Shown here piece after piece: positions 9,579 through 25,258 of a stretch of 31,632 bases of DNA (positions are counted from its first letter, which is position 1; every line of letters starts with the position of its first letter). The notes below the pieces were generated by a model. It did no database searches. It was not told the origin of the DNA and saw nothing but the letters and a program-made list of their open reading frames with translations. Location: IMG/VR virus record IMGVR_UViG_3300032286_001144, positions 1 through 31,632 of that record; one strand, written 5' to 3'. The position numbers were made by a program, and so were the translations under genes. The DNA is from a virus.

Positions 9579-9583
9579 ATAAG
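9576..9583 (+). promoter_or_regulatory. Degenerate late box TAAATAAG at a stop codon, upstream of gp25
   Basis: The stop of the 648-aa gene reads GCTAAATAAG, holding the TAAATA core of the T4 late promoter but lacking the ATA start of the box. It lies 22 bp before the gp25 ATG, whose Shine-Dalgarno (AAAGGTAG) follows. The same octamer TAAATAAG occurs at the stop before the 968-aa gene. Confidence 0.25.
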
Positions 9584-9604
9584 TAGAATTTAAAAGGTAG
9601 ATAG

Positions 9605-9997
9605 ATGGCACTAGAAACTCGTGTTTACAAAGATCTTGACTTAAATCTTTCCGCTCATCCTGTGACGAAAGATGTAGTCAAGCGCACGGGTAATGCAGCC
9701 ATTATCGGTGCGCTGAAGAATTTAATTTTGACGAATTTTTACGAAAAACCATTTAGCCCAACTTATGGTTCTCGCGTTCGTGGGTTGCTGTTTGAAGATG
9801 TTTCCTTCATTACCGCGAATGCGATGGAAACTGAAATTAGAAATAGTGTCGAAAATTTTGAGCCTCGTGTTGGAATTGATATTGTCAGAGTTCAAGCTGA
9901 CCCTGAAGGTAATGGTTACAATGTGACTATACGATTTTACATCAACAATTTAGAGCAACCAGTCACTATTACCATGTTTCTAGAAAAGGTACGCTGA
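9605..9997 (+). CDS. gp25: Baseplate wedge protein gp25
   Basis: A 130-aa homologue of T4 gp25 (132 aa), the small wedge protein that with gp6 and gp53 joins wedge to hub and sheath. The family signature is clear: VYKDLDLNLSAHPVTKDVVK at the N-terminus, FEKPFSP-like (here FYEKPFSPTYGSRVRGLLFE) in the middle, and NFEPRVGI, the conserved EPR motif also found in the T6SS homologue TssE. The start has AAAGGTAG upstream. The stop TGA overlaps the gp6 ATG (TGATG), so the two are translationally coupled, matching their partnership in the inner baseplate. Confidence 0.93.
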   Translation: MALETRVYKDLDLNLSAHPVTKDVVKRTGNAAIIGALKNLILTNFYEKPFSPTYGSRVRGLLFEDVSFITANAMETEIRNSVENFEPRVGIDIVRVQADPEGNGYNVTIRFYINNLEQPVTITMFLEKVR

Positions 9998-12069
9998 TGG
10001 CAAATATAGACCAAAAACTGACTATCTCTGAGTTAGACTTTAACGATATTAAATCTAACCTTAAGAATTTTCTTAGAGACCAGTCTGAATTTAGCGACTT
10101 TGACTTCGAAGCTGCAGGTATTAATGTTCTCCTAGACATCTTAGCCTATAATACACACTACAATGCTTTCTACCTGAACATGGTCGCAAATGAAATGTTT
10201 ATGGATACTGCTCTTTTGCGCGATTCCGTAGTTTCTCATGCTAAGACTTTAGGTTATGTTCCAACATCGTCAACAGCAGCTCGCGCTACGGTTGATTTAG
10301 AAATCTATCGTTCAGCGGGTAGCGCACAAGCAAGCCTCACACTACCAAAATACACAAAATTTCAATCTTCTGTATTAGACGGCGGTACTTCTTACACATT
10401 CATAAACAAAGATGCTGTTGTCGGTAATTACGATGAAACCTGCGGAAGATTTTGCTTCCACAACCTTTACATCTATCAAGGTCAACCAGTAAGTTACACA
10501 TTTACATACGACGCTACCAGCAATATAAATCAAACTTTTGAACTTCCAGATACTGGAATTGATACTGGAACATTGCAAGTTATTGTACAAGAATCCTCAA
10601 CCAGCGTCAGAATAGAAACATTTACTCTTTCTACAGATGCCACAACAGTTACTTCTAACTCTGCGATTTTCTATATCCAAGAAAGCCGCAATGGAAAGTA
10701 TTCGATCTACTTTGGTGATGATATTATTGGTAAGAAGCTGGTTAACGGAAACGTCGTCATCGTTTCTTATGTAAAAACGGATGGTGCTGCGGCAAATAAA
10801 GCCAATTCATTTACCCTTGCAGAAACAGTTGGTGGGTTTTCTTCTTCTGTGATCTATCCTGTTGCTGCAGCGAGTGGCGGCGCTTTGCCTGAGAGTGTAG
10901 AAAGAATTCGTTTTTCTGCTTCAAAATTTTATACTTCAAGCGGAAGAGGTGTAACAGCTGACGACATTGCTGCTCTTATCAATCAAAAGTATCCATACTT
11001 TGACTCTGTTACCGTATGGGGCGGCGACGAGAACGATCCACCAGTCTACGGAAAAGTATTTGTTTCTGCGAAACCGACAGGTGGTTACGAGATTACAGAA
11101 GTCGAAAAGTCTTCTATCATTGCCGACATCATCAAGCCAATTTGCGTTGTTACTGTAACACCAGAGTTTGTAGATGTTGATTACAACTACATTAACATCT
11201 ACGCTAAGGTTTACTACGATCCAACCAAGACCTCTTTAAGCGCTGACGCTATTAAGAATGTTGCAAGAAACGCAATATTGACATATAAAGCAGCAGACCT
11301 TGATACATTTAACAGCAAATATAAACAATCTAGAATTTTGCGTACTATCGATGACTCGAATCTTGCGATCAACTATTCTGACGCAGATTGCACCATCGAA
11401 AAAAGAATTGTGCCAGCTCTGAGTGCTACTAGAAATTATAAATTAGATTACGGTACTCCGTTAGCGAGAGAAGATTCTAAGTATAGAATTTCGTCTTCTC
11501 CTGCATATACTCAATATGATGAAGACGGCGTTTTGCGTAACTGTTTCTTAGAAGAAACTCCTGGATCCTCTTCTGGAGTTGAATCTATTACTGTGGTTGA
11601 TGCTACCAATACATATGAATCAATACCTTCTATCGTAATTTCAGGCGATGGTATTGGTGCTAATGCATATCCAGTTGTTGTTAATGGTAAGATTACAAAA
11701 ATTGTCGTAGATAATCCAGGCTTTGACTATAAGTCTGCAACAGCACAACTCTACTATCAAGGCGATCTAGATACAACAGCAAAGTTTAATGCATTCGTAC
11801 AAAACAGATATGGCGTTATTCGTAGTTTCTACTTCAACAATAACAACATTAAAACAATTATGGACGCTACAGCAGGGTCGGTTGATTACAATATAGGTAA
11901 GATCGTTCTAAATGGATTTGCTCCCGTCGGCATTTCAGATGCGTCAAGAACCTTAAAAGTAATCGCTCGCCCTGAGAATCATAATTTCGAATCTTCTAGA
12001 AACAAAATTATAACTATTGACGAAGAAGCTGCTAATTCTATCAATATTGAAGTCATAGTATCTCAATAA
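9997..12069 (+). CDS. gp6: Baseplate wedge protein gp6
   Basis: A 690-aa homologue of T4 gp6 (660 aa), whose dimers form the continuous ring of the inner baseplate. The N-terminus is highly typical (LDFNDIKSNLKNFLRDQSEF, AAGINVLLDILAYNTHYNAF, YLNMVANEMFMDTALLRDSV, LGYVP). The central part has the baseplate-J-like region with VERIRFSASKFYTSSGRGVT and ALINQKYPYFDSVTVWGGDE. Residues about 528-590 hold a GGxGY/P-type beta module (SIPSIVISGDGIGANAYPVV) also found in other proteins of this window. The C-terminus ends NHNFESSRNKIITID. The start overlaps gp25 and the stop overlaps the next gene as TAATG. Confidence 0.92.
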   Translation: MANIDQKLTISELDFNDIKSNLKNFLRDQSEFSDFDFEAAGINVLLDILAYNTHYNAFYLNMVANEMFMDTALLRDSVVSHAKTLGYVPTSSTAARATVDLEIYRSAGSAQASLTLPKYTKFQSSVLDGGTSYTFINKDAVVGNYDETCGRFCFHNLYIYQGQPVSYTFTYDATSNINQTFELPDTGIDTGTLQVIVQESSTSVRIETFTLSTDATTVTSNSAIFYIQESRNGKYSIYFGDDIIGKKLVNGNVVIVSYVKTDGAAANKANSFTLAETVGGFSSSVIYPVAAASGGALPESVERIRFSASKFYTSSGRGVTADDIAALINQKYPYFDSVTVWGGDENDPPVYGKVFVSAKPTGGYEITEVEKSSIIADIIKPICVVTVTPEFVDVDYNYINIYAKVYYDPTKTSLSADAIKNVARNAILTYKAADLDTFNSKYKQSRILRTIDDSNLAINYSDADCTIEKRIVPALSATRNYKLDYGTPLAREDSKYRISSSPAYTQYDEDGVLRNCFLEETPGSSSGVESITVVDATNTYESIPSIVISGDGIGANAYPVVVNGKITKIVVDNPGFDYKSATAQLYYQGDLDTTAKFNAFVQNRYGVIRSFYFNNNNIKTIMDATAGSVDYNIGKIVLNGFAPVGISDASRTLKVIARPENHNFESSRNKIITIDEEAANSINIEVIVSQ

Positions 12070-15000
12070 TGTACGCAAATAATTTTACATCAAGTCTTGT
12101 AAATAGACAGCTCCCTGAGTTTGTAAGAACAGAACATCCTAAATTTGTTTCCTTACTCGAAAAATACTACGAGTATATGGAACAAACTGATAAGACCATG
12201 TATGCCTCGAAGCATATTCCTGATTACATGGACCTAGATACTACTAGAGCAGATCTTCTCAGCTATTTTAAAACTAAAGTAATTCCAAGTTTCCCAGAAG
12301 AAACTTCGCTTTCTAAAGAAAAGATAATGAAAGCAGCGAGAGATTTCTACGCCAAGAAGGGAACACCTGATGGGTTTAAGTTTCTCTTTCGTGTATTGTA
12401 CAAACAGGAAATTGAGATCTACTTTCCTAAAGAAGATATTTTTCGTGCGTCAGATGGTAAGTGGCAACTACCACAATCTTTAAGAATTTCAGTAACAGAT
12501 ACGTCTGATGCAGTTCTAGGTGGAAATGTAAATGTATTTTTCTCGACTAGCAATTCGAATACATCTGCGATTGTAGTTGCAAATGGTATTAATTTCGTCA
12601 GTGAAGGCATCGATGCTAATTCATACATTCGAATCAATGGTGTTAAAAGAAAAGTAATTAATTCCGCTTCTTCGCAACTTATTGTTGATGTTCCTTTTCC
12701 AAGCAATGACCGAAACGTCAATAATCAAATTTATGACAGTGAAACACTTTATAAAGTTACACTTAGCCCATATGACAGCTTTGACTTTAATCTCATAGAA
12801 AGAAGAAAGGGATATGGAAGTATTTCTAAAACTTCTTGCATTATCGAAAGCGCAGTTCGTACAGTTGACAGAGACACTGGGCGCGATATTGTTGAGATAT
12901 ACATCTCTAATGTCAGAAAACCTTTTGAGAATAATGAAAACTTAGTAGTCGACTACATTGATCCAACTACAAATACGACGGCAACTTTCTCTTCTCAAAT
13001 TATTTCTTTGATATCTAATGTATACTTGACGAGAAATAGATTTGGCGTTGTGCAAAGCGGCGCGCGATACAAATTTGGCGATCCTGTAGTATTTTTTGGT
13101 GGACTAAACCCAACTTCTGATGAAGCAGTTAAAGCGGTCGCTACCGTACAAAACGTATCCTCTGGTTTCTTAGATTACGTTACATTAGAAACCCCAGGAT
13201 ATTTCTTTCGCGATTGGTCAAATTCTATTGTTCAAATTGAAAACAATACAGGTGTTGGTGCGAACCTAATCATCGACGCTATCTGGGAAGACGGTGGCGC
13301 TAACTCTGCATCTTTCTCGTTTAACATTGACACGATTTACGATAAGCTCGGGATAGCATTAAATGCAGCAGACTACGGATTTGATACTGCGGGTACAACG
13401 ACGGCATCTAGTACTATAGCCAGTGCACTGACTTATGACTCATATACTCTTGGTAAAATTCGATTATTGACACTAGTCAACAGAGGTTCGTTTTACGAAA
13501 CTGTACCAACTTTTGACCCGATTTCAGTACATGATACAGACTATACTGAGTTGAATGGTGGATTTTTTAAAATACCTAAAAATGCAATGAGTAACTATAA
13601 TCCAATTTTGAAAACTATTCAGTTGGATGGTGCGAATTCAAGTTATAGTACAACCAGCGGAATGTACACTGGTGCAAGACTATTTATTGAGGCTTCTACA
13701 AGCAGTGCGCACTATGTTAATATTGTTGATTATGTCGTAGTTAATAACGGTGGAACGTACACTAAAACACTATATCTTGAGGATGCATTTGAAACGAATA
13801 TTACCGCAACTAACGCCCAAAACTTTAAATATTATATGGACTTTAGATCTGATGTAAGAAGTACAGGTAGATTAGGGTTTGTCAAAGTAGATGTTGCGGG
13901 GACTGGATATTCTGGAACAGATAAAGTTAAATTTATTGGAACGGGTTATGATGGAGTTGGATCAGTTACTGTTAACGGTTCTGGTGGCATCACAGCCGTA
14001 AGCCTTACTGGTGGTGCTAACAGCAGAGGCGAAGGTTATGTTGCCCGTCCAACTTGTGTTGTTTATAAATCTGATGGAACTACCCCGAGCGATGGAACTG
14101 GTGCTGTATTAACTGCTTATACATTGAGTGACGGCGAATCTATGGTCGCTGCAACTACGGGTATCGGCGAAATTCAGTCTTTCAATATTATAAACAGAGG
14201 TTACGACTACATCAGCGCGCCTCTTGTTTCTTTAAAAGTTGCAGATTTCTTAACGGACAATTTACCTTCTGCTGCAATTGTTGTTGCAGGCGATTCTATT
14301 TGGCAGGGAGGAGTTACAAACGTTGGTGCTATTTTTCAGGCTACCATCGATGAAATTTATAGACCAAACCCAACAACTTCTGTAATTCGTGTGTTCAATT
14401 ACAACGGAACAGTTGACCTAAATTTACCATTTAAGGTCAATACGGCAACGCAAAACATTACATGCAATCTTTATAAAACTAATACTAGCATTTCGTTTAA
14501 TGGTATTAACCCAGCATCTCCGCGACTTTATCCTTTCTTCTACGGAAATGGATTAGCAAAAGCAAATGCTGAGTTTTCAAGCGGACTAATTCGATACAAC
14601 GGATACTACTTAAATACAGATGGTCATGTTAGTGCAGATAAGAAGTTGCAAAATAAAGACTACTATCACAATTTCTCGTATGAAATTCAGTCAGAAAAGC
14701 CACTAAACGAATATAAGAAGACTATGTATGACGTAGCGCATCCAGCTGGAATGCAAATGTTGTCGAAGTATGTTATGAACGACAAATTGACGTTTAGCAT
14801 GAATTCAGAAAGCCAACTTGATACATCATCTAATCCAGTTAGTTCATCTTCAGTAATAAGAACAGTTTCGTCAAGTTACACTCACGCTAACGTGACATTC
14901 TCAGGATCAGTTGACGGAGTTTCAGTAGGCGACTATGTCGTCATAAATAGCTCGGGTACTGAACAAAAGCAATATGTTAAGAAGATAACTTCAACGATTA

Positions 15001-15308
15001 GCGCAACTAGATTTGGTATTGAAAGTGCGATTGGTGGGTTAGGTGATGGAAGGTTGACAACAACTGCAGGCAGTTCTTCTGTAAAAATTACTGGCAATAC
15101 TTATCCTGTATCTGATAGTTTGTCGGATGGAAATGTAATTGAATTTTATTTGAGTGGCTCAACAGTAACTGAAACTATTGCAACTAGCGGAATTTCTGGT
15201 AATACAATAACTCTAACATCTACTGTTGCATCTTCTTCAAATAACCTCGCCTTCTTCGTTAGACCGTCATATAGTGGGGTCGACGCTCTTATTATTAAGA
15301 CAATTTAA
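12069..15308 (+). CDS. Large baseplate wedge protein in the gp7 position
   Basis: A 1079-aa protein placed exactly where T4 has gp7 (1032 aa), between gp6 and gp8, and of similar length. The N-terminal region (LPEFVRTEHPKFVSLLEKYY, EYMEQTDK; then KAARDFYAKKGTPDGFKFLF, RVLYKQEIEIYFPKEDI) is typical of a virion protein of T4-like marine phages that follows gp6. I do not see clear sequence identity to T4 gp7, so the equivalence rests on position and size. The middle and C-terminal thirds are beta-rich with several GGxGY/P modules (DVAGTGYSGTDKVKFIGTGY; GANSRGEGYVARPTCVVYKS; IINRGYDYISAPLVSLKV). Residues about 875-905 (KPLNEYKKTMYDVAHPAGMQ) look like a conserved family motif. Its stop lies 15 nt before the gp8 start. 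Confidence 0.75.
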   Translation: MYANNFTSSLVNRQLPEFVRTEHPKFVSLLEKYYEYMEQTDKTMYASKHIPDYMDLDTTRADLLSYFKTKVIPSFPEETSLSKEKIMKAARDFYAKKGTPDGFKFLFRVLYKQEIEIYFPKEDIFRASDGKWQLPQSLRISVTDTSDAVLGGNVNVFFSTSNSNTSAIVVANGINFVSEGIDANSYIRINGVKRKVINSASSQLIVDVPFPSNDRNVNNQIYDSETLYKVTLSPYDSFDFNLIERRKGYGSISKTSCIIESAVRTVDRDTGRDIVEIYISNVRKPFENNENLVVDYIDPTTNTTATFSSQIISLISNVYLTRNRFGVVQSGARYKFGDPVVFFGGLNPTSDEAVKAVATVQNVSSGFLDYVTLETPGYFFRDWSNSIVQIENNTGVGANLIIDAIWEDGGANSASFSFNIDTIYDKLGIALNAADYGFDTAGTTTASSTIASALTYDSYTLGKIRLLTLVNRGSFYETVPTFDPISVHDTDYTELNGGFFKIPKNAMSNYNPILKTIQLDGANSSYSTTSGMYTGARLFIEASTSSAHYVNIVDYVVVNNGGTYTKTLYLEDAFETNITATNAQNFKYYMDFRSDVRSTGRLGFVKVDVAGTGYSGTDKVKFIGTGYDGVGSVTVNGSGGITAVSLTGGANSRGEGYVARPTCVVYKSDGTTPSDGTGAVLTAYTLSDGESMVAATTGIGEIQSFNIINRGYDYISAPLVSLKVADFLTDNLPSAAIVVAGDSIWQGGVTNVGAIFQATIDEIYRPNPTTSVIRVFNYNGTVDLNLPFKVNTATQNITCNLYKTNTSISFNGINPASPRLYPFFYGNGLAKANAEFSSGLIRYNGYYLNTDGHVSADKKLQNKDYYHNFSYEIQSEKPLNEYKKTMYDVAHPAGMQMLSKYVMNDKLTFSMNSESQLDTSSNPVSSSSVIRTVSSSYTHANVTFSGSVDGVSVGDYVVINSSGTEQKQYVKKITSTISATRFGIESAIGGLGDGRLTTTAGSSSVKITGNTYPVSDSLSDGNVIEFYLSGSTVTETIATSGISGNTITLTSTVASSSNNLAFFVRPSYSGVDALIIKTI
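14942..14949 (+). promoter_or_regulatory. Late-promoter-like CATAAATA box near the end of the gp7-position gene
   Basis: CATAAATA matches seven of eight bases of the T4 late core and lies about 375 bp before gp8 inside coding sequence. It could be fortuitous; it is listed because other boxes of this form sit in similar places near gene ends. Confidence 0.2.
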
Positions 15309-15323
15309 TCAAATGGGCAAAAA

Positions 15324-16907
15324 ATGAACTCAATAATCACCAAAGACTTTGGCGTTTCTATAGCTGAAAATTTTGAGAACTCAATCTCAAACGGAATAGA
15401 TTTTGTTTATTTGATGATGGGCAGAGCTGCTGCTTGGCCATATGAAAACAATGTAGAAACTGTAGAATACCCATACGACACTACTGAATATAAAAACAGC
15501 GTTTTTAAGAACGGTATCATCTTAAAGAAAGTTACAGGAAGCGACATTCAACCCGTAATACCAAGAGTAGATTGGACTTCGGGCACATTATATGTCGCAT
15601 ATGACCAAACAAGAAATCTTTTTGCCAAAACAGCAACAACAGAAATTTTAGATCTTGGTGTTTCTATTAACGCAGGAACATTAGCAAAAGTAGACGCCAA
15701 CGTCGGTTTTGATTTAAATAACGAATTTCAAGTTGGCGATATTGTAAGAATAGGTGCGACAGAAAAAGAAGTTATTTACATCGATGTTGATGGCGAGTTT
15801 ATGAACGTCAACACCAGCTTCGGCTCTTCTATATCTGCGTTCGAACCAGCAACAGCATATAGAATTGACCCAGTATCAATACAATATTATGTCCGTAACA
15901 AGTACGACCAAGTATTCAAATGCTTATACAATAATGGATACGCCAGTTCTACATCTGAGCCAGAAATAACTGTGGGTGGTGAACTCCCAGAAAACCCATA
16001 TGTGCAAACAGCAGATGGATACAAATGGAAGTACATGTACACAATTCCAAGTGGTTTGAAGAAGAAATTTTTTACTACCAACTATATGCCTGTTCTACGC
16101 GACACAGTGGTCTACAATAATGCTGTCGACGGAAGAATCGACGTTGTACAAGTTACAGATGGCGGTACTGGATATTACAACGGTGGCACTGTTACTAATT
16201 ATCCAGTTGTAACAGTAAGTGGAGATGGAACTGATGCAACGGCTACTGTTGATATTGAAGACGGAGTTATCACCGAAGTCAATATTACCGACGGCGGCGC
16301 AGGTTATACAAATGCAGAATTTACTATCGTAGATCCTTTGCAACTAAACACAGGAACGCCAGCAACACTTAGAGCTGTAATAAGCCCTCAATATGGCCAT
16401 GGCGCAGATCCAGCAAGAGAATTAGGCGCATCATACTCTATGATTAGCGCAGATTTTCAAGGCACAGTTGAAGGATATCTCCCAACACCAACAGTAAACG
16501 ACGATTTTAGGCAGATAGCTCTAATCAGAAATCCAAAATTGGCCAATGGAATAATTGCTATTCAGTCAATTTATCCAATGTACACTAAAATGTTTGTCGA
16601 AAACAGAACTACTTTCGTTGCTGACGCAAATTTAGTTGTCGATGGCACCAACTTTACTTCTACAGTGTTGTTTTACGACACAGCTGAAGACGCTTTGTAT
16701 GTAAATAACGTACGAGGTGATGCAAATACTATCTTGACGTTACCGATAAAGCAAGAAAATGATGCAGCAATATATGCTCAGGTCTATACCGTTGAGAAAC
16801 CTAGTATAAATATTGCATCGGGTGAGATTTTGTACATCGAAAATCGCGCTGCAGTCACCAGAAACGCAAACCAAACAGAAACTGCCAAGATCGTTATCGA
16901 ATTTTAA
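15324..16907 (+). CDS. gp8: Baseplate wedge protein gp8
   Basis: A 527-aa homologue of T4 gp8 (334 aa), a wedge protein of the middle baseplate. Recognisable family parts: DFVYLMMGRAAAWPYENN near the N-terminus, QPVIPRVDWTSGTLYVAYDQ, YYVRNKYDQVFKCLYNNGYA, TADGYKWKYMYTIPSGLKKK, FQGTVEGYL-type sequence and the usual ending GEILYIENRAAVTRNANQTE then KIVIEF. The extra length over T4 is mostly a beta insert at about residues 265-370, including two GGxGY units (VTDGGTGYYNGG; ITDGGAGYTNAE). The Shine-Dalgarno is weak. The TAAGGG at the stop acts as the Shine-Dalgarno for the next gene. Confidence 0.9.
   Translation: MNSIITKDFGVSIAENFENSISNGIDFVYLMMGRAAAWPYENNVETVEYPYDTTEYKNSVFKNGIILKKVTGSDIQPVIPRVDWTSGTLYVAYDQTRNLFAKTATTEILDLGVSINAGTLAKVDANVGFDLNNEFQVGDIVRIGATEKEVIYIDVDGEFMNVNTSFGSSISAFEPATAYRIDPVSIQYYVRNKYDQVFKCLYNNGYASSTSEPEITVGGELPENPYVQTADGYKWKYMYTIPSGLKKKFFTTNYMPVLRDTVVYNNAVDGRIDVVQVTDGGTGYYNGGTVTNYPVVTVSGDGTDATATVDIEDGVITEVNITDGGAGYTNAEFTIVDPLQLNTGTPATLRAVISPQYGHGADPARELGASYSMISADFQGTVEGYLPTPTVNDDFRQIALIRNPKLANGIIAIQSIYPMYTKMFVENRTTFVADANLVVDGTNFTSTVLFYDTAEDALYVNNVRGDANTILTLPIKQENDAAIYAQVYTVEKPSINIASGEILYIENRAAVTRNANQTETAKIVIEF
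16805..16812 (+). promoter_or_regulatory. Perfect TATAAATA late-promoter core upstream of the 1313-aa gene
   Basis: TATAAATA is identical to the T4 late promoter core, which is read by the gp55 sigma-like protein without a -35 element. It lies inside the gp8 coding end, 105 bp before the start of the 1313-aa gene, so it would give a leader of about 95-100 nt. It is the only exact match I found in the window. Confidence 0.5.
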
Positions 16908-16917
16908 GGGTAAATAA

Positions 16918-19900
16918 ATGTCAACATTGAACTTCTACGACGAGCCATATTGGGACGACTTTGAGGTCGGCGGTGGACCTAAAGACAACAACTATATGCG
17001 AATTCTATTCCGTCCAGGATATGCGGTTCAAGCTCGTGAGTTGACGCAAATTCAGTCAATAATTCAAAATCAGATTAAGCAGTTTGGCAATCATATTTTC
17101 CAAAATGGTTCCCCAGTAACTGGTGGACATCTAACTCTCGATACTTCTGCAGTCTATGTCAAGGTAGAAAAGCAGTTTTCTGGCAATGACGTTGACCTAG
17201 AAAACTTCTTGGGTCTAACTGTATACAACCAAACTAGCCCAAAAACTAGAGCAAGAGTAATCCAAACATACAGCTCGTCGACCGACAGAACGCTTCTAGT
17301 CAAATATATTCGCGGCGCAGACTTTTTGGCTTCGCAAACTCTCACGGCATCTTATGTCGGCGAACAGGCAACTATCCTTTCTGCTAATTTTACAGGCAAG
17401 GGTTCTATCGTTTCTATCAACGACGGTATTTTCTACGTTGATGGTTACTTTGTCCAGGTTGCTGCACAAACAATCGTTCTAGACCCATATAGCACCACAC
17501 CGACTTATCGTGTTGGTCTGCAGATCGAAGACGATATCGTGACTGAAAGTGAAGACACAATGCTTCTTGATCCTGCACAAGAATCATTTAACTATCAGGC
17601 TCCTGGCGCACACCGTTACAAGTTTAACCTAATCCTCGCAAAGCGTTCTATTGATTCGGTTGATGATAACCGCTTCTTCGAGTTGATGCGTGTTGAAAAT
17701 GGCGTTGTAACCAAGCAAATATCTTATCCAGTATACTCAGAACTAGAAAAAACGCTTGCTCGTCGTACATACGACGAATCAGGCGACTACACAGTCAAGC
17801 CATTCCGCGTCAATGTTACAGCTAATACTCCAGCAACCAGCGACGCAGCTAATAATACATTTATCATTAACATCGAGCCAGGTAAGGCTTATGTACAAGG
17901 ATTTGAGTACCAAACAATTGGAACTAAATCCTTCACTGCTACTCGCGCAAGAACATACAACGATAACCTAGATTACGATCTTTCTGTTGAATACGGCAAT
18001 TACATCAAGGTATCTGACGTCAAGGGAAACACTAACGGTATCGGTTTTAGCAAAAATTATGAACTAGTAGACCTCCACTGCGTCGATTCTGGACAAATTT
18101 CTTTCAGCAATACCCAAGCGTATTATTCCACTAGAATTGGTACGGCAAGAATTAAGAATTTTGACAGAGATGCTTCAGCAAATATCTACAAAGTAAATTT
18201 GGTTGATGTTAATTTCAATCAAATTGTAGGAATAGCAAACGGGCAATCATCGTTCAACCAAGTTGGTTTTGATAAATTCTTTTCTGCTGCTCCTGATGCA
18301 TATAGAGGCGGCAAAATTTCAATATTGACTGGTGATGCAGCTGGTCAATTTGGAACAATTACTGGATATACTACAGCGGATAAAGTCGCAACAGTAGATA
18401 AAACATTTACCAGCGCAATTGCTTCTACTGTTAAATATTCTTTAACTATACCGTTTGCGGCTGCGAAGTCTATTGCAATCGCCAACACCAATACATTTAC
18501 TTCAGCAAATCTAACGGCAAATATTGCACCATATGCATTCGGTGGTAAGACGCGCGATAATGCGGCATTTATTGCCGACACCAGCCTAAACAAGAGCATA
18601 TATGAATTACCAAATCAATTTGTAACCTACAACGGGTTCAAAAATGTAGATATCTATAGAAGATTGTTAACAAATGTTGATTTTTTATCAGACGGCACCT
18701 ACTCTCTTGGTTTAAGCGACGGAAGTATCTTCCCGTTCGGACCAGCGAGCAGCGGCGCTGTATCTTCTCAAGCAATTTTAGATAATATTATTGTTGTCGC
18801 TAGATCGAACCAAGCTGGTGGTGTGAGCAGAGGCGATATCATTGACTTTACTATTGGCGGAAAATCAGTCACTAAAGGCAGCAGCACATCACTAACATTT
18901 AATTCTGCTGTGGCTGCAGCATTTAATGCTGACATCTATGTCACCGTTAAAACAAATAGTATTGCTACTAGGGTTAAAACTCTAGTAAAATCTAACAATG
19001 CCCTTACCGCTTTCGACTTACCTTCTGCAGCAACCAGCGTAGTTGGTTATACTGACGTTAAATTAAATCTAAGTAAGGGTATTGCTTGGTTTACTTCTTC
19101 TAATGTTATCTACAAAACGCCTGAACAAAAACAATCATTATTTGTCTCAGACGTCATTAAAATTAACAAAATTTATGACTCTGCAAACATTTACTATGCA
19201 CCAAACATTGCAAATGCTACAACGGTAGACGTCACTAGCCGTTACACATTTGATAGCGGACAAAACGACAACTATTATGACCACGCAGCAATTATGCTCA
19301 AACCAGGTTCTCAGCCACCAAGTGGTCAGACATGTGTTTTGTTTGACTGTTACCAACATAGTGGGTCGGGATATCTTGCTGCGAATTCATATCCATCTTC
19401 AGTATATGCTGAAGAACAAATTCCAATCTATAAGGCTCTAAACGGTAAAGCATATTCTCTAAGAGATTGCATCGACCTAAGACCAATCAGAACTGACGGA
19501 ACTGCTGCTGCGCCATATGTGTCAATACCATTGAGCGCAAGAGTTAATGTTGCCGTCGGTAGCACTTTGGTTATAGCAAACACTTCGCTGACCTCTAATG
19601 CTATTTCTCCGCCAATAACAACAGGCACAATGATTAGCGTTGGCGGACAGTTTAGAACAGTTACTAATGTAATTAATAGCAAGGCTATATCCGTTGCAAC
19701 GTCTTGGGCATTAGCATGCACCAACGTAACAATAAGCACTGTATCTGCTAACTTAATTCTTTCTACAGATTACTTGCAAACAGGTAAATCTACTCAACCA
19801 ATGCAACTTGATTATCAGTATTACCTACCTAGAATTGACAAGGTTGTAGTGACCAAGGATAAGGAATTTAAGGTTCTAACTGGTGCACCGTCACTAACTC

Positions 19901-20859
19901 CGCAAGAACCTATTGAAACAGATGGCTCAATGCCGATCTATCTAATTAAAGTTCCAGCATATACTTCTTCAACAGAATCGATTGATCTCCAGTTTATTGA
20001 CAATCGTCGCTATACTATGAAGGACATCTCTTACATTGACCAGAGACTATCTGCGGTCGAAGAATGGAAGAAATTGAAGGAGTCTGAAGCCAATATCATC
20101 AATAATCCTCCAAGAGATACTTCGAATACAATGAGCAAGCCTATTTTAGGAACGCTTGTTGATGAGTACAACGACCTTGGTTCGGCTGATTTGTCGCAAG
20201 ACTTTTCGGCATCTCTAGAAAATGGAAAACTGACGACATACAAGTACTCTGTTCCGTTCTCGCTTGTACCGAAAGATCCAACTAGCGTTCTTCTTCGCGA
20301 CAAGTTTGTTTGCTTGAATTACACCGAAACGCCAGCTGTTACTCAAGAATTTGCAACACCAGCAGCGAATTCTATTGTACAAACTTCGGTTATCGGTAAG
20401 TTTGACGGATTTGTTACACTAACTCCAGAAAGTGATTATTACTATTCAACTGAACATCAGCCAGCAGTAACTGATTCGTTGGGCAGATTGTATCAAATTC
20501 CGCAACCATTACTACCGATTAGTAATCCAATCTTCACGGGTATGGGTTATGTCGGTTCAATTAGATATGCATATTCAAGCGGTTACTATAACAATGGTGT
20601 AATCGTAAGCGCAAGTCAACCAACCACAACCCAACAGGGTATTAAAGTTGCAGACTACACTGTAGCAAACACAGTAACCGAACCTACCACCACCGTCACC
20701 ATCCCAGTTACAACAGCTGGTGCAGTAGATGTGTTAAATAGGCAGTGGTATGGTCTGAACCCTGTTTTGAGTCCTGCGGATATCAACAAATATTTGCGTG
20801 GGTATACAGATAGTTCGCAAATAGCAAGTGGCTCTGTTGGATCGTACTCTACACCGTAA
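16918..20859 (+). CDS. Large baseplate/tail protein, DUF4815-like
   Basis: A 1313-aa protein. Its N-terminus matches the DUF4815 signature found in T4-like phages: RPGYAVQARELTQIQSIIQN, QIKQFGNHIFQNGSPVTGG (about residues 32-71), followed by GIFYVDGYFVQV and NIEPGKAYVQGFEYQTIGTK. The rest is beta-rich, with RYTMKDISYIDQRLSAVEEW at about 1037-1056, a short helix-rich link, and a Thr-rich C-terminus. By position it follows gp8 where T4 has gp9 and gp10, so an outer-baseplate or fibre-connector role is likely, but I see no direct match to those proteins. The start has AAGGGT overlapping the gp8 stop, spacing about 7 nt. A perfect late-promoter core lies 105 bp upstream. Confidence 0.72.
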   Translation: MSTLNFYDEPYWDDFEVGGGPKDNNYMRILFRPGYAVQARELTQIQSIIQNQIKQFGNHIFQNGSPVTGGHLTLDTSAVYVKVEKQFSGNDVDLENFLGLTVYNQTSPKTRARVIQTYSSSTDRTLLVKYIRGADFLASQTLTASYVGEQATILSANFTGKGSIVSINDGIFYVDGYFVQVAAQTIVLDPYSTTPTYRVGLQIEDDIVTESEDTMLLDPAQESFNYQAPGAHRYKFNLILAKRSIDSVDDNRFFELMRVENGVVTKQISYPVYSELEKTLARRTYDESGDYTVKPFRVNVTANTPATSDAANNTFIINIEPGKAYVQGFEYQTIGTKSFTATRARTYNDNLDYDLSVEYGNYIKVSDVKGNTNGIGFSKNYELVDLHCVDSGQISFSNTQAYYSTRIGTARIKNFDRDASANIYKVNLVDVNFNQIVGIANGQSSFNQVGFDKFFSAAPDAYRGGKISILTGDAAGQFGTITGYTTADKVATVDKTFTSAIASTVKYSLTIPFAAAKSIAIANTNTFTSANLTANIAPYAFGGKTRDNAAFIADTSLNKSIYELPNQFVTYNGFKNVDIYRRLLTNVDFLSDGTYSLGLSDGSIFPFGPASSGAVSSQAILDNIIVVARSNQAGGVSRGDIIDFTIGGKSVTKGSSTSLTFNSAVAAAFNADIYVTVKTNSIATRVKTLVKSNNALTAFDLPSAATSVVGYTDVKLNLSKGIAWFTSSNVIYKTPEQKQSLFVSDVIKINKIYDSANIYYAPNIANATTVDVTSRYTFDSGQNDNYYDHAAIMLKPGSQPPSGQTCVLFDCYQHSGSGYLAANSYPSSVYAEEQIPIYKALNGKAYSLRDCIDLRPIRTDGTAAAPYVSIPLSARVNVAVGSTLVIANTSLTSNAISPPITTGTMISVGGQFRTVTNVINSKAISVATSWALACTNVTISTVSANLILSTDYLQTGKSTQPMQLDYQYYLPRIDKVVVTKDKEFKVLTGAPSLTPQEPIETDGSMPIYLIKVPAYTSSTESIDLQFIDNRRYTMKDISYIDQRLSAVEEWKKLKESEANIINNPPRDTSNTMSKPILGTLVDEYNDLGSADLSQDFSASLENGKLTTYKYSVPFSLVPKDPTSVLLRDKFVCLNYTETPAVTQEFATPAANSIVQTSVIGKFDGFVTLTPESDYYYSTEHQPAVTDSLGRLYQIPQPLLPISNPIFTGMGYVGSIRYAYSSGYYNNGVIVSASQPTTTQQGIKVADYTVANTVTEPTTTVTIPVTTAGAVDVLNRQWYGLNPVLSPADINKYLRGYTDSSQIASGSVGSYSTP

Positions 20860-20864
20860 ATAAG
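20857..20864 (+). promoter_or_regulatory. Degenerate late box TAAATAAG at a stop codon, upstream of the 968-aa gene
   Basis: The stop of the 1313-aa gene reads CGTAAATAAG, the same octamer as at the stop before gp25. It lies 18 bp before the next ATG, whose Shine-Dalgarno AGAGGA (20868-20873) follows at once. It holds the TAAATA core only. Confidence 0.25.
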
Positions 20865-20881
20865 ATAAGAGGAATATCATA

Positions 20882-23788
20882 ATGGCAATCGCTTATGCAG
20901 CGCAGCAAAAGGTTTTAAGCAAGACTACTCCAGTTTGGAGTACGACAGATCCACAACAAACTCAAGTTCCTGTTGGGCTAACACCTTTTATTCGCGAAAA
21001 TGATATCGAATTTTCGGTAAAAAATCTAAAGCCTGATACGGATGCTAACTTTTTCTTTGATGATATCAAAGTTAATAATTTTTGTCAAAGAGCATCTGTT
21101 ATAAACGTATCTTCTAGCAGTGTGTTAGCAAATCTTCGAATTAATGAAGGCATATTCAACACAACGACGAATGCATATGCTCAAGTATTAGGGACGTCAA
21201 GAACAGCAACTTCAAATTTAATTTACGTTAATGAAAATTTCATTAGTATGAATTTGGTTCAGGGAGGAAGCCCTACTCTTTCGTCAAGTGAGTATAGTGT
21301 AGGTGATCTAGTTTATCAAACTTCTACTGGCTCTGCATATGCATTTAGCGCATATGCTGGATACCATCAGCCACAGTTTCAATTTTTAGGTAAAGTAGTA
21401 AAGTGGAAAACTGCTGAGGGTGCTAATAGAGGAACTTTGATTGTAGATCCTATCTTAGGCACTTTAAATACTTCAGCAACAGTTGCTAACAATATTTACA
21501 ACTTGACTAAACCTGATGCAGGAATTCGTCACGCTAATAATATCTTTACTACTTCAAGATTTAGTGCAGGAAGTACGATTGTTTACTCAGCAAATGATGT
21601 AACAATTACCACACTTAGCGCCGCAAATGCTTATATCGCTGTGTCTGGCGCATTGGCTAGAGTTAACGTAGGAAATTATAATAGCATAACTATCTCCACT
21701 AATGATATTACTAGAGATGGACTAGGTTCTACGTTAGTAGACAAAAAAATTACTGTTGTGTCTGGTAATAACATGGGTTTTACTGCTAACGTCACAGTTG
21801 GCGCAGTAGTAACTGGCGTTGGTTATGCACTAACTCTTGATGACGCAGCCCCTGTCAATTTTTCTTCAAACAGCTTATATTCTATCCAGAACCACGTTGT
21901 TGATGATGTTGGTTCTTTGTACGGTATTTTTCATATTCCTTCAGACAACAACCTTCGTTGGTTGGCTGGTGAAAGACTGTTTACTGTTACTGACACCGCA
22001 ACGCATAATGACAACGGTTACATGATGCGTGCTGTTTCTAAATATACAGCTCTCGGCAAGGTTAACAGCACAGAAAATGCAAGAAATTATGTTCTACGTG
22101 AACAAACTCCAAGCACTGCTCAAGCTGCACCTAGCGTTATCCAAGAAACGCAAAAGATTAACGATCGTAAGTTTATGGCACAAACTTTCTTTACACCAAA
22201 ATCAAGTGAAGTTCTTGATGGGCAAGTAAAGTCTTCATATGGAATTTATGTAACCTCGATCGATTTGTTCTTCAAGTCCAAGCCAACTGACGCTGAGGAA
22301 CTATTGCCGTTTACAGTTGCTATTTCTAAGGTTGAAAGTGGAGTTCCTAGCAATGACATCATTGCTGAAAAAACTTTAGAGCCTGCATACGTTAATGTAT
22401 CCGCAAATACTCCTGCTCTTTCTAATACGACAGTAATGACAAAATTTACGTTTAACGACCCTGTCTATCTACTTCCTTCTAATGAATATGCAATTAAGTT
22501 GATTACAGAATCAACAGACTATGAAGTTTGGACGGCAGTTCTTGGTGGCGAATATACTGACGAAATCGGTAACGTGCGCAAAATTTCAGAGCAACCATAT
22601 GTCGGTAATTTGTTCAAGTCACAAAACGCCTCTAACTGGAACCCGATTCTAAATCAGGATCTAATGTTTAGAGTAAATCGTGCTGTGTTTGAATCTTCAA
22701 ACACTGTATACTTCGGTATTAAGTCTAACGAAGACCACCAGCGCGATATCTATATGGACGAAATCCGTATTGCCGCAACTGAACAGCAACTCGCACCAAC
22801 CTCAGTTACCTATGACGTTAAAACTTGGACGGCGTTGGCTGATGCTGCTCCATCTGCACAAGACTACATTAGAGTAACTCCAAACGAGGTTTACAAGTTT
22901 GGTAAAGACACAAATGTTTCATCGGTAAATTCTAACAGAAGAAGAATTATACCTAAAGCCAATTCAGCATATAGCAATGTTAAAATCACACTTTCGACTA
23001 CAGATAATCGTGTATCGCCGATTGTAAACAGAGAACGTTTAGGTTTATTTGCTATTCAAAACATTATTAATAACGCTGGTATCTCAAATAACTTAATTAC
23101 TATCACTAATAGCGGCGCGCACGGCGCATGCGCCGCTTCTATTGTAGTGACATTTAGTTCTCCTGATGTTGGTGCAAATATAGCAAAGGCTAACATTTTA
23201 TCTTCGATGCTATCAAGTGGTAAGGTTATTGGTGTCAATATTATTAACCCAGGTGCTGGTTACTTTACTGCACCAACAATTACTATCGAAGAACCAGCTG
23301 TAGCATCAAATGCGACGGCAGTAGTAAATGGTGAAAATAATACATCTGGAGGCAATATTTTTGCAGGGTATCAAACTAAGATCGTTGAACTTGCAGAAGG
23401 CATCTATGCTGGCGATCTAATTGTTCGTCTAGACGTGGTTCGTCCACCTGGAACTGACGTTGGCGTCTACTTCAAGGTTCTATCGCCATTCGATAAAGAT
23501 CAATTCGTATCTAAGAAATGGGTCAAGATGGAAAAGGTCAACAACCTCTACTCTCCAGACCAGAACAGCAATGTTCGTCTTGAATATAGATTTGCGTTAG
23601 ATAAGGGTGAAATTGAATACTTTGAGGGCGACAAATCATTCCCACTCGGTAAGGTCTTCAAGTATTTTGCAATCAAACTACGTTTGACTGCTCAAGATCC
23701 AACCGTTGTTCCAATGGTTGATTCGTTGAAAGTTCTGGCGGTTCCTGGTGAATCTGAACTTCCATCGATCGACGGCGGTGGCTATTAA
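20882..23788 (+). CDS. Large tail/baseplate structural protein (968 aa)
   Basis: The product resembles large virion proteins found next to the DUF4815 protein in T4-like marine phages; no T4 counterpart is recognisable. An early motif is ENDIEFSVKNLKPDTDANFF at residues about 39-58. A central jelly-roll-like region (about 440-600) reads SYGIYVTSIDLFFKSKP, LLPFTVAISKVESGVPSN, then ISEQPYVGNLFKSQNASNWN and LNQDLMFRVNRAVF, a signature I know from phage structural proteins. A GGxGY/P unit (IINPGAGYFTAPTITIEEP) lies at about 780-800. The C-terminal domain (VRLDVVRPPGTDVGVYFKVL, FKYFAIKLRLTAQDPTVVPM) may bind fibres. It carries an odd GC-rich palindrome at 23122-23135. The start is backed by AGAGGA at 8 nt. 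The stop overlaps the next start (TAATG). Confidence 0.68.
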   Translation: MAIAYAAQQKVLSKTTPVWSTTDPQQTQVPVGLTPFIRENDIEFSVKNLKPDTDANFFFDDIKVNNFCQRASVINVSSSSVLANLRINEGIFNTTTNAYAQVLGTSRTATSNLIYVNENFISMNLVQGGSPTLSSSEYSVGDLVYQTSTGSAYAFSAYAGYHQPQFQFLGKVVKWKTAEGANRGTLIVDPILGTLNTSATVANNIYNLTKPDAGIRHANNIFTTSRFSAGSTIVYSANDVTITTLSAANAYIAVSGALARVNVGNYNSITISTNDITRDGLGSTLVDKKITVVSGNNMGFTANVTVGAVVTGVGYALTLDDAAPVNFSSNSLYSIQNHVVDDVGSLYGIFHIPSDNNLRWLAGERLFTVTDTATHNDNGYMMRAVSKYTALGKVNSTENARNYVLREQTPSTAQAAPSVIQETQKINDRKFMAQTFFTPKSSEVLDGQVKSSYGIYVTSIDLFFKSKPTDAEELLPFTVAISKVESGVPSNDIIAEKTLEPAYVNVSANTPALSNTTVMTKFTFNDPVYLLPSNEYAIKLITESTDYEVWTAVLGGEYTDEIGNVRKISEQPYVGNLFKSQNASNWNPILNQDLMFRVNRAVFESSNTVYFGIKSNEDHQRDIYMDEIRIAATEQQLAPTSVTYDVKTWTALADAAPSAQDYIRVTPNEVYKFGKDTNVSSVNSNRRRIIPKANSAYSNVKITLSTTDNRVSPIVNRERLGLFAIQNIINNAGISNNLITITNSGAHGACAASIVVTFSSPDVGANIAKANILSSMLSSGKVIGVNIINPGAGYFTAPTITIEEPAVASNATAVVNGENNTSGGNIFAGYQTKIVELAEGIYAGDLIVRLDVVRPPGTDVGVYFKVLSPFDKDQFVSKKWVKMEKVNNLYSPDQNSNVRLEYRFALDKGEIEYFEGDKSFPLGKVFKYFAIKLRLTAQDPTVVPMVDSLKVLAVPGESELPSIDGGGY

Positions 23789-23997
23789 TGGATCAAATTA
23801 AGATCGACGGTACACAGTATAGCAGGGATCTAAACAATAGAGCGGTCGTTTGTGACGATCGCAATGTTCTAGAAAACTACTACATGAAACAACGTAAGCA
23901 CCGCGACAATACTCGTCGAGATAAGGAAATAAATAGCCTGAAGGAAGAGATGTCCGAAATTAAATCTATGCTTAAAATTTTGATGGAAAGAGGCTAA
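23788..23997 (+). CDS. Small 69-aa coiled-coil protein
   Basis: The product begins MDQIKIDGTQYSRDLNNRAV and ends with a charged heptad-like helix (RDKEINSLKEEMSEIKSMLK, about residues 46-65). Short proteins of this design occur in T4-like marine phages between large structural genes; function is unknown. It is very basic in the middle (MKQRKHRDNTRRDK). The start overlaps the upstream stop (TAATG), and the next ATG comes 1 nt after its own stop, so it is co-translated with the 968-aa protein and the collagen-like fibre. A small trimerising or connecting helix is a reasonable guess only. Confidence 0.7.
   Translation: MDQIKIDGTQYSRDLNNRAVVCDDRNVLENYYMKQRKHRDNTRRDKEINSLKEEMSEIKSMLKILMERG
23928..23935 (+). 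promoter_or_regulatory. Late-promoter-like AATAAATA box upstream of the collagen-like fibre
   Basis: AATAAATA matches seven of eight bases of the T4 late core, sits near the end of the 69-aa gene and lies 63 bp before the fibre ATG. This spacing would allow a normal leader, so it is a reasonable candidate for separate late expression of the fibre module. Confidence 0.4.
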
Positions 23998-23998
23998 A

Positions 23999-25258
23999 AT
24001 GGCTAACGCAGATATCAATGTAGTTGCAACCACAGATACGTTCGACACATGGCGAACACGCACCAACGTTCTGATTACTGATAGAAACCAACTTCGTAAC
24101 GCACCATTCGTAAAAGACAACTCGAGTTTTATTGTTGCTAATGGCGAAATAAGTGTTGCAAGAACTACTAATGGTACTCTTTTGAGGCTTGAGGGTAGAG
24201 CAAACGCTTACATCGGTTACAACTTAGAAGTTGGCAGTAATATCTTAGTCGGTAACATTTCGACTACTCAAAATATTGCAACAGGTAATATATCAGTTAG
24301 CCGAAACACTTCGACTGGCAATCTGAGTGTTACTCAAAATATTGCTGCGGGTAATATTTCCGTAACACAAAATACCTCAACGGGAAACCTCAGAGTAACA
24401 ACTCTTGCTAACGTCGGAACTCTATCTATAATTGGGTTTGGTCCAATTATTGACAGCAGTGGTAATTGGCTTGGCAGTTCATCGGGGATTGGTGGTGCTA
24501 CTGGTTCACAAGGTGCTCAGGGAACGCAAGGAATAGGCGCCCAAGGCGTTCAAGGTGTACTAGGAATTCAGGGTCGCCAAGGCACTCAAGGCACCAGCGT
24601 CCAGGGTGCTGCTGGTAACATTCAAGGCACTCAAGGAACTCAAGGCACTAGCGTTCAAGGTATACTAGGAAGTCAAGGAGCGTCGGGTGGCGGCGGTGGG
24701 GGGTCTCAAGGATCGCAAGGCACTCAAGGCACCAGCGTCCAGGGTGCTGCTGGCAATGTGCAGGGTTCCCAAGGAACTCAAGGAACCAGTGTACAAGGTG
24801 CTGCTGGGGCTGGTGGCGGTACAGCTACCTCTATACAAGCAACAAGCAGTTCGACTAATGAAGCTCTCTATCTTGTTGGTGTTCCTGGAACTTTAGGAAC
24901 TAGCCAAACAATCAAAGCATGCACTTCTATATTTGCTAACGCTAGTACTGGATTAATTTTTGCAGTTGACTTCTCAGCATCGTCAGACGCTAGACTAAAG
25001 AAAGGTATTACAGTAATACAAAACTCATTGAACGATTTAGATTATATTAGCGGTGTCAGATATTTCTGGGCTGATGAATCTAGAGGAACGAATCAGCAAA
25101 TTGGTGTTATCGCGCAGGATGTTGAAAGAGTCATTCCTGAAGCAGTAAATGTTGACCATAATGGTTTTAAGAGCGTAAGTTACGACAGAATTATTCCTTT
25201 GTTGATTGAATCTATAAAAGAACTAAAGGCTCGCGTTGAAGAGCTTGAGAAGAGATAA
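23999..25258 (+). CDS. Collagen-like tail fibre with C-terminal S74 intramolecular chaperone
   Basis: A 419-aa fibre. The N-terminus (TDTFDTWRTRTNVLITDRNQ) is a baseplate-attachment type seen in several phage fibres. Residues about 85-135 are a 10-residue repeat (TQNIATGNIS, SRNTSTGNLS, TQNIAAGNIS, TQNTSTGNLR). Residues about 166-280 are collagen-like G-X-Y triplets dominated by GxQ/GTQ/GAQ, broken by a run of glycines (SGGGGGGS). The C-terminus from about 327 matches the peptidase S74 / endosialidase chaperone family: SASSDARLKKGITVIQNSLN, GVRYFWADES, IGVIAQDVERVIPEA, SYDRIIPLLIESIKELKARV. In this family the chaperone trimerises, helps folding and cuts itself off at the Ser of the SDxRLK motif; S and D are present here. 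The start follows the previous stop by 1 nt. Confidence 0.9.
   Translation: MANADINVVATTDTFDTWRTRTNVLITDRNQLRNAPFVKDNSSFIVANGEISVARTTNGTLLRLEGRANAYIGYNLEVGSNILVGNISTTQNIATGNISVSRNTSTGNLSVTQNIAAGNISVTQNTSTGNLRVTTLANVGTLSIIGFGPIIDSSGNWLGSSSGIGGATGSQGAQGTQGIGAQGVQGVLGIQGRQGTQGTSVQGAAGNIQGTQGTQGTSVQGILGSQGASGGGGGGSQGSQGTQGTSVQGAAGNVQGSQGTQGTSVQGAAGAGGGTATSIQATSSSTNEALYLVGVPGTLGTSQTIKACTSIFANASTGLIFAVDFSASSDARLKKGITVIQNSLNDLDYISGVRYFWADESRGTNQQIGVIAQDVERVIPEAVNVDHNGFKSVSYDRIIPLLIESIKELKARVEELEKR
24578..24753 (+). repeat. 38-bp perfect direct repeat in the collagen-like region
   Basis: The sequence at 24578-24615 (starting CAAGGCACTCAAGGCACCAG) recurs exactly at 24716-24753, 138 bp (46 codons) later. 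It encodes QGTQGTSVQGAAG. A shorter, diverged copy (QGTQGTSVQG) lies between them and another follows. Such repeats can change copy number by recombination while keeping the reading frame. Confidence 0.9.

Follow-up and report, generated by a model that had tools for sequence, protein, structure and literature searches.

The question raised by this locus is whether the glycine-rich beta units that recur in several of its tail proteins are copies of one domain and, if they are, to what this domain is related and what it may do. The window, that is, the whole stretch of DNA analysed, is a virus record of 31,632 bases with a T4-like tail gene block inside. The genes of this block are the following:

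9605-9997, gp25
9997-12069, gp6
12069-15308, gp7-position protein (gp7 below)
15324-16907, gp8
16918-20859, DUF4815 protein
20882-23788, 968-aa protein

When positions 8000-24000 were compared with phages by megablast, no match was found.

A unit shared by four tail proteins

A first-pass annotation had proposed that units with a GxGY motif are shared by gp6, gp7, gp8 and the 968-aa protein. We iterated five seeds with HMMER, two taken from gp7 and the other three from gp6, gp8 and the 968-aa protein, against 1536 ORFs (the window plus 96 loci, one of which, L001, duplicates part of the window) and 1536 shuffled and 1536 reversed decoys, with inclusion at E<1e-3. All five runs converged on the four proteins, which entered every run between the first and the third iteration that followed the initial phmmer pass, and none of the 3072 decoys reached inclusion (best decoy E 0.0098). 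Therefore, the shared unit is confirmed and its copies are linked above background. Single window sequences linked to each other weakly or not at all at iteration 0, whereas the profiles linked them strongly. The underlying repeat of around 42 residues has a loop of the form G-x-G-Y and a linker, GDGxGA; a full unit takes about 1.5 repeats, and the units measure around 60-85 residues. From 45 such units we built the module profile A3. The units of the window, with the evidence for each, are:

11566..11748, + strand, core of the GxGY barrel unit of gp6, residues 524-584 (iterated HMM, A3, comparison with T4)
13041..13277, + strand, first gp7 unit, residues 325-403 (iterated HMM, A3; earlier given as 13177-13300)
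13407..13514, + strand, doubtful half-unit of gp7, residues 447-482 (iterated HMM, best i-E 0.0072)
13860..14246, + strand, fused unit pair of gp7, residues 598-726 (iterated HMM, A3, fold alignment of 603-686)
16122..16382, + strand, gp8 unit, residues 267-353 (iterated HMM, A3, AlphaFold2 model, fold alignment of 273-353)
23096..23347, + strand, unit in the 968-aa VrlC-like protein, residues 739-822 (iterated HMM, A3; earlier start 23209)

All five intervals proposed earlier lay within the proteins named, although the starts of the first gp7 interval and of the one in the 968-aa protein had to be shifted; one profile stretches the gp6 unit to residue 631 (11889). The loop departs from GxGY in many places, as with TPGYFF in the first interval of gp7 and with NTY and PGFDY in gp6. 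To call the four proteins neighbours is slightly loose, because a 1313-aa protein in which no unit was detected separates gp8 from the 968-aa protein.

Regarding the A3 scores, gp6 reached 5.4e-20, gp8 7.0e-17 and two gp7 units 3.2e-11 and 1.5e-10, partly by construction because these units are rows of A3. The gp7 unit at 13866-14042, which is outside the rows, scored 2.7e-8, and the 968-aa protein scored 7.0e-10; the window's copy of the latter is also outside the rows, but its homologues from other loci are inside.

The 45 units were also compared with family databases. In Pfam-A at E<=1 they hit 14 families, none of them significant and none Ig-like, with Gp18_dom_I (2 units) and COXG (1 unit) sharing the best E of 0.019; in NCBIfam at E<=1 they hit 6 families with one unit each (best E 0.028), again none significant. 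We thus rejected the identification of the module with a named Pfam or NCBIfam domain, and what is described here is a domain with no significant match to either database in the 45 units scanned. Searches of the PDB with phmmer returned nothing credible (best E 0.16 for the gp6 unit and 0.019 for the gp8 unit), and the A3 matches there, the tailspike Dpo31 at 0.029 and gp18 at 0.33, are suggestive only. The overlap was already latent in the PHROGs, because 28 of the 45 units match within phrog_460 (head closure Hc2), 31 within phrog_438 (baseplate wedge), 28 within phrog_2885 and 27 within phrog_701, with matches in other families too. However, these are whole-protein families and none of those listed is defined as the module.

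Fold of the unit

AlphaFold2 modelled gp8 with a mean pLDDT of 89.8 (10-residue means of 92-96 over the module) and gp7 with 76.9 overall and 82-93 at residues 601-720. With VIA-align, residues 603-686 of the predicted gp7 model fell on residues 99-187 of 3fo8 (Z 8.6, 77 residues, 2.4 A, 20% identity) and residues 273-353 of the predicted gp8 model on residues 99-186 of 3foa (Z 6.0, 72 residues, 2.6 A, 17% identity), bearing in mind that a VIA Z near or below 8 may reflect merely a common arrangement. Among the matches listed for each model, only those to gp18 chains had ranges confined to the module stretches. One gp7 and one gp8 unit are thus predicted beta-barrels that superpose on residues 98-188 of gp18, the tail sheath protein of T4. 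Judging by the ends of the aligned ranges, the GxGY loops of these two units would lie within about one residue of the T4 G-S-N-Y, an inference from predicted models. The idea of one common fold holds directly for these two units, while those of gp6 and the 968-aa protein are joined to them by sequence.

Foldseek placed T4 gp8 first for the gp8 model, followed by the AP22 tailspike 4y9v (probability 1.00, 109 columns) and F1-ATPase barrels, at E >0.1. The tailspike is absent among the VIA matches listed for this model. We discarded the likeness of the module to F1-ATPase, because the corresponding VIA alignments fall on gp8 residues 106-183 and 420-480, off the module. For the gp7 model a single chain reached E<=0.001, namely 9f4a_A0 of the KP1 baseplate.

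Probable sequence relationship to domain I of the tail sheath

Across the T4 genome (168,903 bases) the sole A3 match at E<=1e-3 was gene 18 (98536-100515), at residues 102-154 and E 9.6e-5. The phiM9 sheath matched at residues 110-166 (E 5.2e-7), and Pfam Gp18_dom_I matches it at the same place (4.3e-4, below its cut-off). Two overlapping clear matches (i-E 6.7e-15 for residues 240-298, and 5e-9) lie within residues 240-318 of the sheath of Stenotrophomonas phage YB07, and the S-PM2 sheath matched at residues 253-294. These last two sheaths carry the match off the T4 domain I position; therefore, insertion into the sheath was repeated, or the insert moved. A tblastn search with a gp6 unit also reached two Stenotrophomonas sheaths (71% over 31 residues, E 2e-4 and 3e-4). 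In a profile-profile comparison by hhalign, A3 matched A4, built from six T4-type domain I sequences, with a probability of 73% and P 3e-5, the best of 200 column shuffles reaching 0.0069 and the reversed control 0.61.

Not all the sheaths matched. With Z set to 1000, A3 scored T4 at 0.0026, phiP4-3 at 0.055 and AhFM11 at 0.4, and found no match in the sheaths of YI837, D490, KVP40, Los1 and the cyanophages S-PRM1 and S-B64. A 197-kb relative (G001) had no A3 match in its sheath and gave no Gp18_dom_I match at E<=0.01. In the reverse direction, the Pfam family (PF22639) hit 7 of 17 records at E<=0.01, above its cut-off only in T4 and KVP40; the hits coincided with A3 places in phiM9, P-HM2 and HTVC008M, whereas that in P-SSM2 was near but off an A3 place and that in Cr30 was in a frame with stops. 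The window itself gave no PF22639 match at E<=0.01 and none at the curated score, so we file the module as a relative and not as a member of this family.

The likeness to T4 gp18 domain I consists of an inserted beta-barrel, a GxxY loop and a weak but specific sequence match. The difference is that the protein which carries it is the sheath and that, from our reading of the alignments, in T4-type sheaths a different, partly helical stretch replaces the second GxGY of the module. The insert of the YB07 sheath, at 240-318 and thus off the T4 position, has clear GxGY units like those of the module. In the titles and abstract openings searched, we found no report of a link between such a module and sheath domain I.

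Inheritance and distribution of the units

The comparison with T4 was made for gp6 and gp8, and in both the module is an insertion into a tail protein whose T4 counterpart lacks the region, as had been proposed. To follow the units among relatives, we computed a quick maximum-likelihood tree of 140 of 234 units (59 columns), dropping those at least 72% identical to one kept but retaining the window's own. Although 69 of its 137 inner branches are unresolved, the tree requires only 5 changes of host protein, against a minimum of 4 and a shuffled mean of 68.6, and none of 200 shuffles was as low. One branch sets all the gp6 units apart (support 93) and another does so for the gp8 units (support 77), while each of the remaining three host-protein classes by itself needs two changes. 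With so few changes, recent shuffling among the four proteins was rejected. The domain can be called mobile, as was first suggested, only in deep time: in the sampled relatives the units follow their host protein and keep a steady place within gp6 and gp8. Our best reading is that they were inserted long ago into several tail proteins and are now inherited with them.

Merging the hits of the five profiles, and counting the window, its copy, fragments and near-identical contigs among loci picked by gp8 or gp7 similarity, which favours carriers, the unit was present in 89 of 89 gp8-class, 66 of 76 gp6, 80 of 92 gp7, 21 of 28 968-aa-class and 26 of 90 DUF4815-class ORFs. The same profiles found no unit in 14 gp48, 25 gp53, 66 gp5, 64 gp25 and 30 p419 ORFs of the sampled loci. 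The gp6 ORFs without a unit include those of L076, L090, L092, L094 and L096 (597-617 aa), and some of the misses are fragments. In the DUF4815 class, L063 has a long fused ORF whose unit, at residues 1904-1957, occupies the place of the unit of the 968-aa protein. The listed gp7-class ORFs longer than 850 aa hold 2-4 A3 domains each, regardless of their length (874-1679 aa).

We then scanned with A3 a wider set of 17 records (the window, two IMG/VR records and 14 named phages) and obtained a match in 16 of them: 31 matches in P-HM2, 23 in Syn9, 16 in S-PM2, 12 in P-SSM2 and one in T4. KVP40 gave none, although its sheath matches Gp18_dom_I. The matches of P-HM2 fall in gp7 (14), a second gp7-annotated protein (10), gp14 (3), a fibre protein (2), gp8 and gp5 (one each), and those of Syn9 in the putative fibre gp101 (16), gp103 (4), gp14 (2) and gp8 (1), with none in gp6. 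In P-SSM2 a hub protein of the gp5 type and a fibre protein have one match each, and in phiM9 so do VrlC, gp8 and the sheath. The gp8 unit is widespread, being found in HTVC008M and BUCT-ZZ01 too, while no unit match was found in gp6 of Syn9, Melnitz, T4, L076 and L090. To say, as before, that the domain spread through the baseplate is therefore too narrow, because in other phages it also occurs in sheath, hub, neck, VrlC and fibre proteins.

Two side observations belong here. The BUCT-ZZ01 gp8 (L101, 234-1811) has two tandem units (185-241 and 279-336) in the gp8 insert region. Units also occur in MAG contigs assigned to Verrucomicrobiaceae, Kiritimatiellaeota, Armatimonadetes and Hodarchaeum (L142-L146), in three of the five within ORFs longer than 1100 aa. 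Against plasmids, a gp6 unit found 2 Azospirillum records.

Possible role of the barrel

According to PMC3004832, domain I of T4 gp18 (98-188) is a six-stranded barrel with a helix, inserted into domain II. It protrudes, takes no part in contacts between gp18 subunits and, while the sheath is extended, binds the baseplate; it also binds the long fibres when these are retracted, and the mutations G106S, S175F and A178V in it inhibit fibre retraction. The three mutated letters fit the T4 sequence in three of three cases with a one-residue shift (G107, S176, A179) and in one of three without it; with this shift G106S therefore falls on the glycine of the shared GxxY loop. Because T4 domain I docks both the baseplate and the retracted fibres, a docking role is suggested for the baseplate units, whose outward exposure is presumed. 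We hold, with somewhat more confidence than doubt, that the unit is an ancient small beta-barrel related to T4 gp18 domain I, which would have been inserted long ago into gp6, gp7 and gp8 of the wedge and into the C-terminal half of VrlC, would since have been inherited together with these proteins, and most likely acts as an outward knob on which other components of the tail dock, chiefly the fibres in their folded state and the adjacent subunits of wedge or sheath. In Anabaena phage A-1(L), one copy of the wedge insertion domain of gp31 holds the long tail fibre (PMC10966104); this may be a precedent for the holding of a fibre by such an insertion, not for kinship with the module.

The barrel could instead be passive surface decoration or a spacer, which fills or stabilises outward loops without a specific partner. 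This explanation would suit the fact that many unrelated proteins tolerate the insert and that its copy number varies, from the few A3 domains per long gp7-class ORF to the arrays of 14 in the P-HM2 gp7 and 16 in one Syn9 protein. Nevertheless, we consider it rather unlikely, given that the related T4 domain docks partners and that the steady place and retention of the unit in gp8 and gp6 suggest a kept role, even if the loci were picked by gp8 or gp7 similarity.

Less probable still is that the barrels bind directly to the host surface or its glycans, their arrays serving as a glue of low affinity. The weak Dpo31 match concerns a solved tailspike, and the wedge and putative fibre proteins of cyanophages hold arrays. 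The pattern search of cellular MAG contigs gave 5 relatives among 218 hits, those of Verrucomicrobiaceae and Kiritimatiellaeota lying in long ORFs (1140-1937 aa); therefore, the module is not confined to phages and adhesion keeps some plausibility. However, the module also sits in proteins of the sheath and neck, which are remote from the cell when contact is first made, and sugar binding would be no more than a candidate role. That glycine-rich beta repeats converged without common ancestry is very improbable: the motif is short and repetitive and single-sequence searches hardly join the window's own units, but no decoy entered the five iterated runs, units of two proteins align to nearly all of the same solved domain, and none of the 200 column shuffles came close to the real match between the profiles.

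Returning to the docking barrel related to domain I, such a reading would connect the repeated inserts of aquatic phages with the only tail domain for which genetics supports fibre docking, and would turn what was called decoration into a testable interface. It is conceivable, if unlikely, that T4-like phages have one docking barrel in common among their sheath, neck, hub, wedge and fibre proteins, that a fibre in its folded state can thereby be held at several stations of the virion by a like interface, and that the large gp7 of some cyanophages consists partly of arrays of docking barrels.

Other features of the tail gene block

The DUF4815 protein and the 968-aa protein match successive parts of a single PHROG, phrog_358, which is VrlC-like in annotated phages. 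This VrlC-like protein is split into two ORFs in the window (16918-23788) and in 12 of the 19 relatives listed; it is a single ORF of 2042-2043 aa in L032 and L043 and of 2023 aa up to the contig end in L063, and the remaining listed relatives have the first ORF only.

By iterated HMM and by fold alignment we also found a second, different shared barrel, which is likewise an insert relative to T4 gp8:

15600..15881, + strand, second shared barrel, gp8 residues 93-186

It is missing from the 441-aa gp8 of L032. Iterated HMM searches, in which no decoy was included, join it to gp7 (144-212), the DUF4815 protein (873-935) and the ORF at 7632-9578 (residues 171-212 and 237-296), and residues 94-186 of the predicted gp8 model align by VIA-align to residues 247-373 of the LKA1 tailspike (Z 9.8). 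Finally, residues 419-493 (16578-16802) in the core part of the gp8 model align to residues 766-845 of the T4 baseplate chain 5iv5_BJ (Z 8.7, 1.8 A over 71 residues), which from its length we take to be gp7, and this hints at a domain common to gp7 and gp8 themselves.
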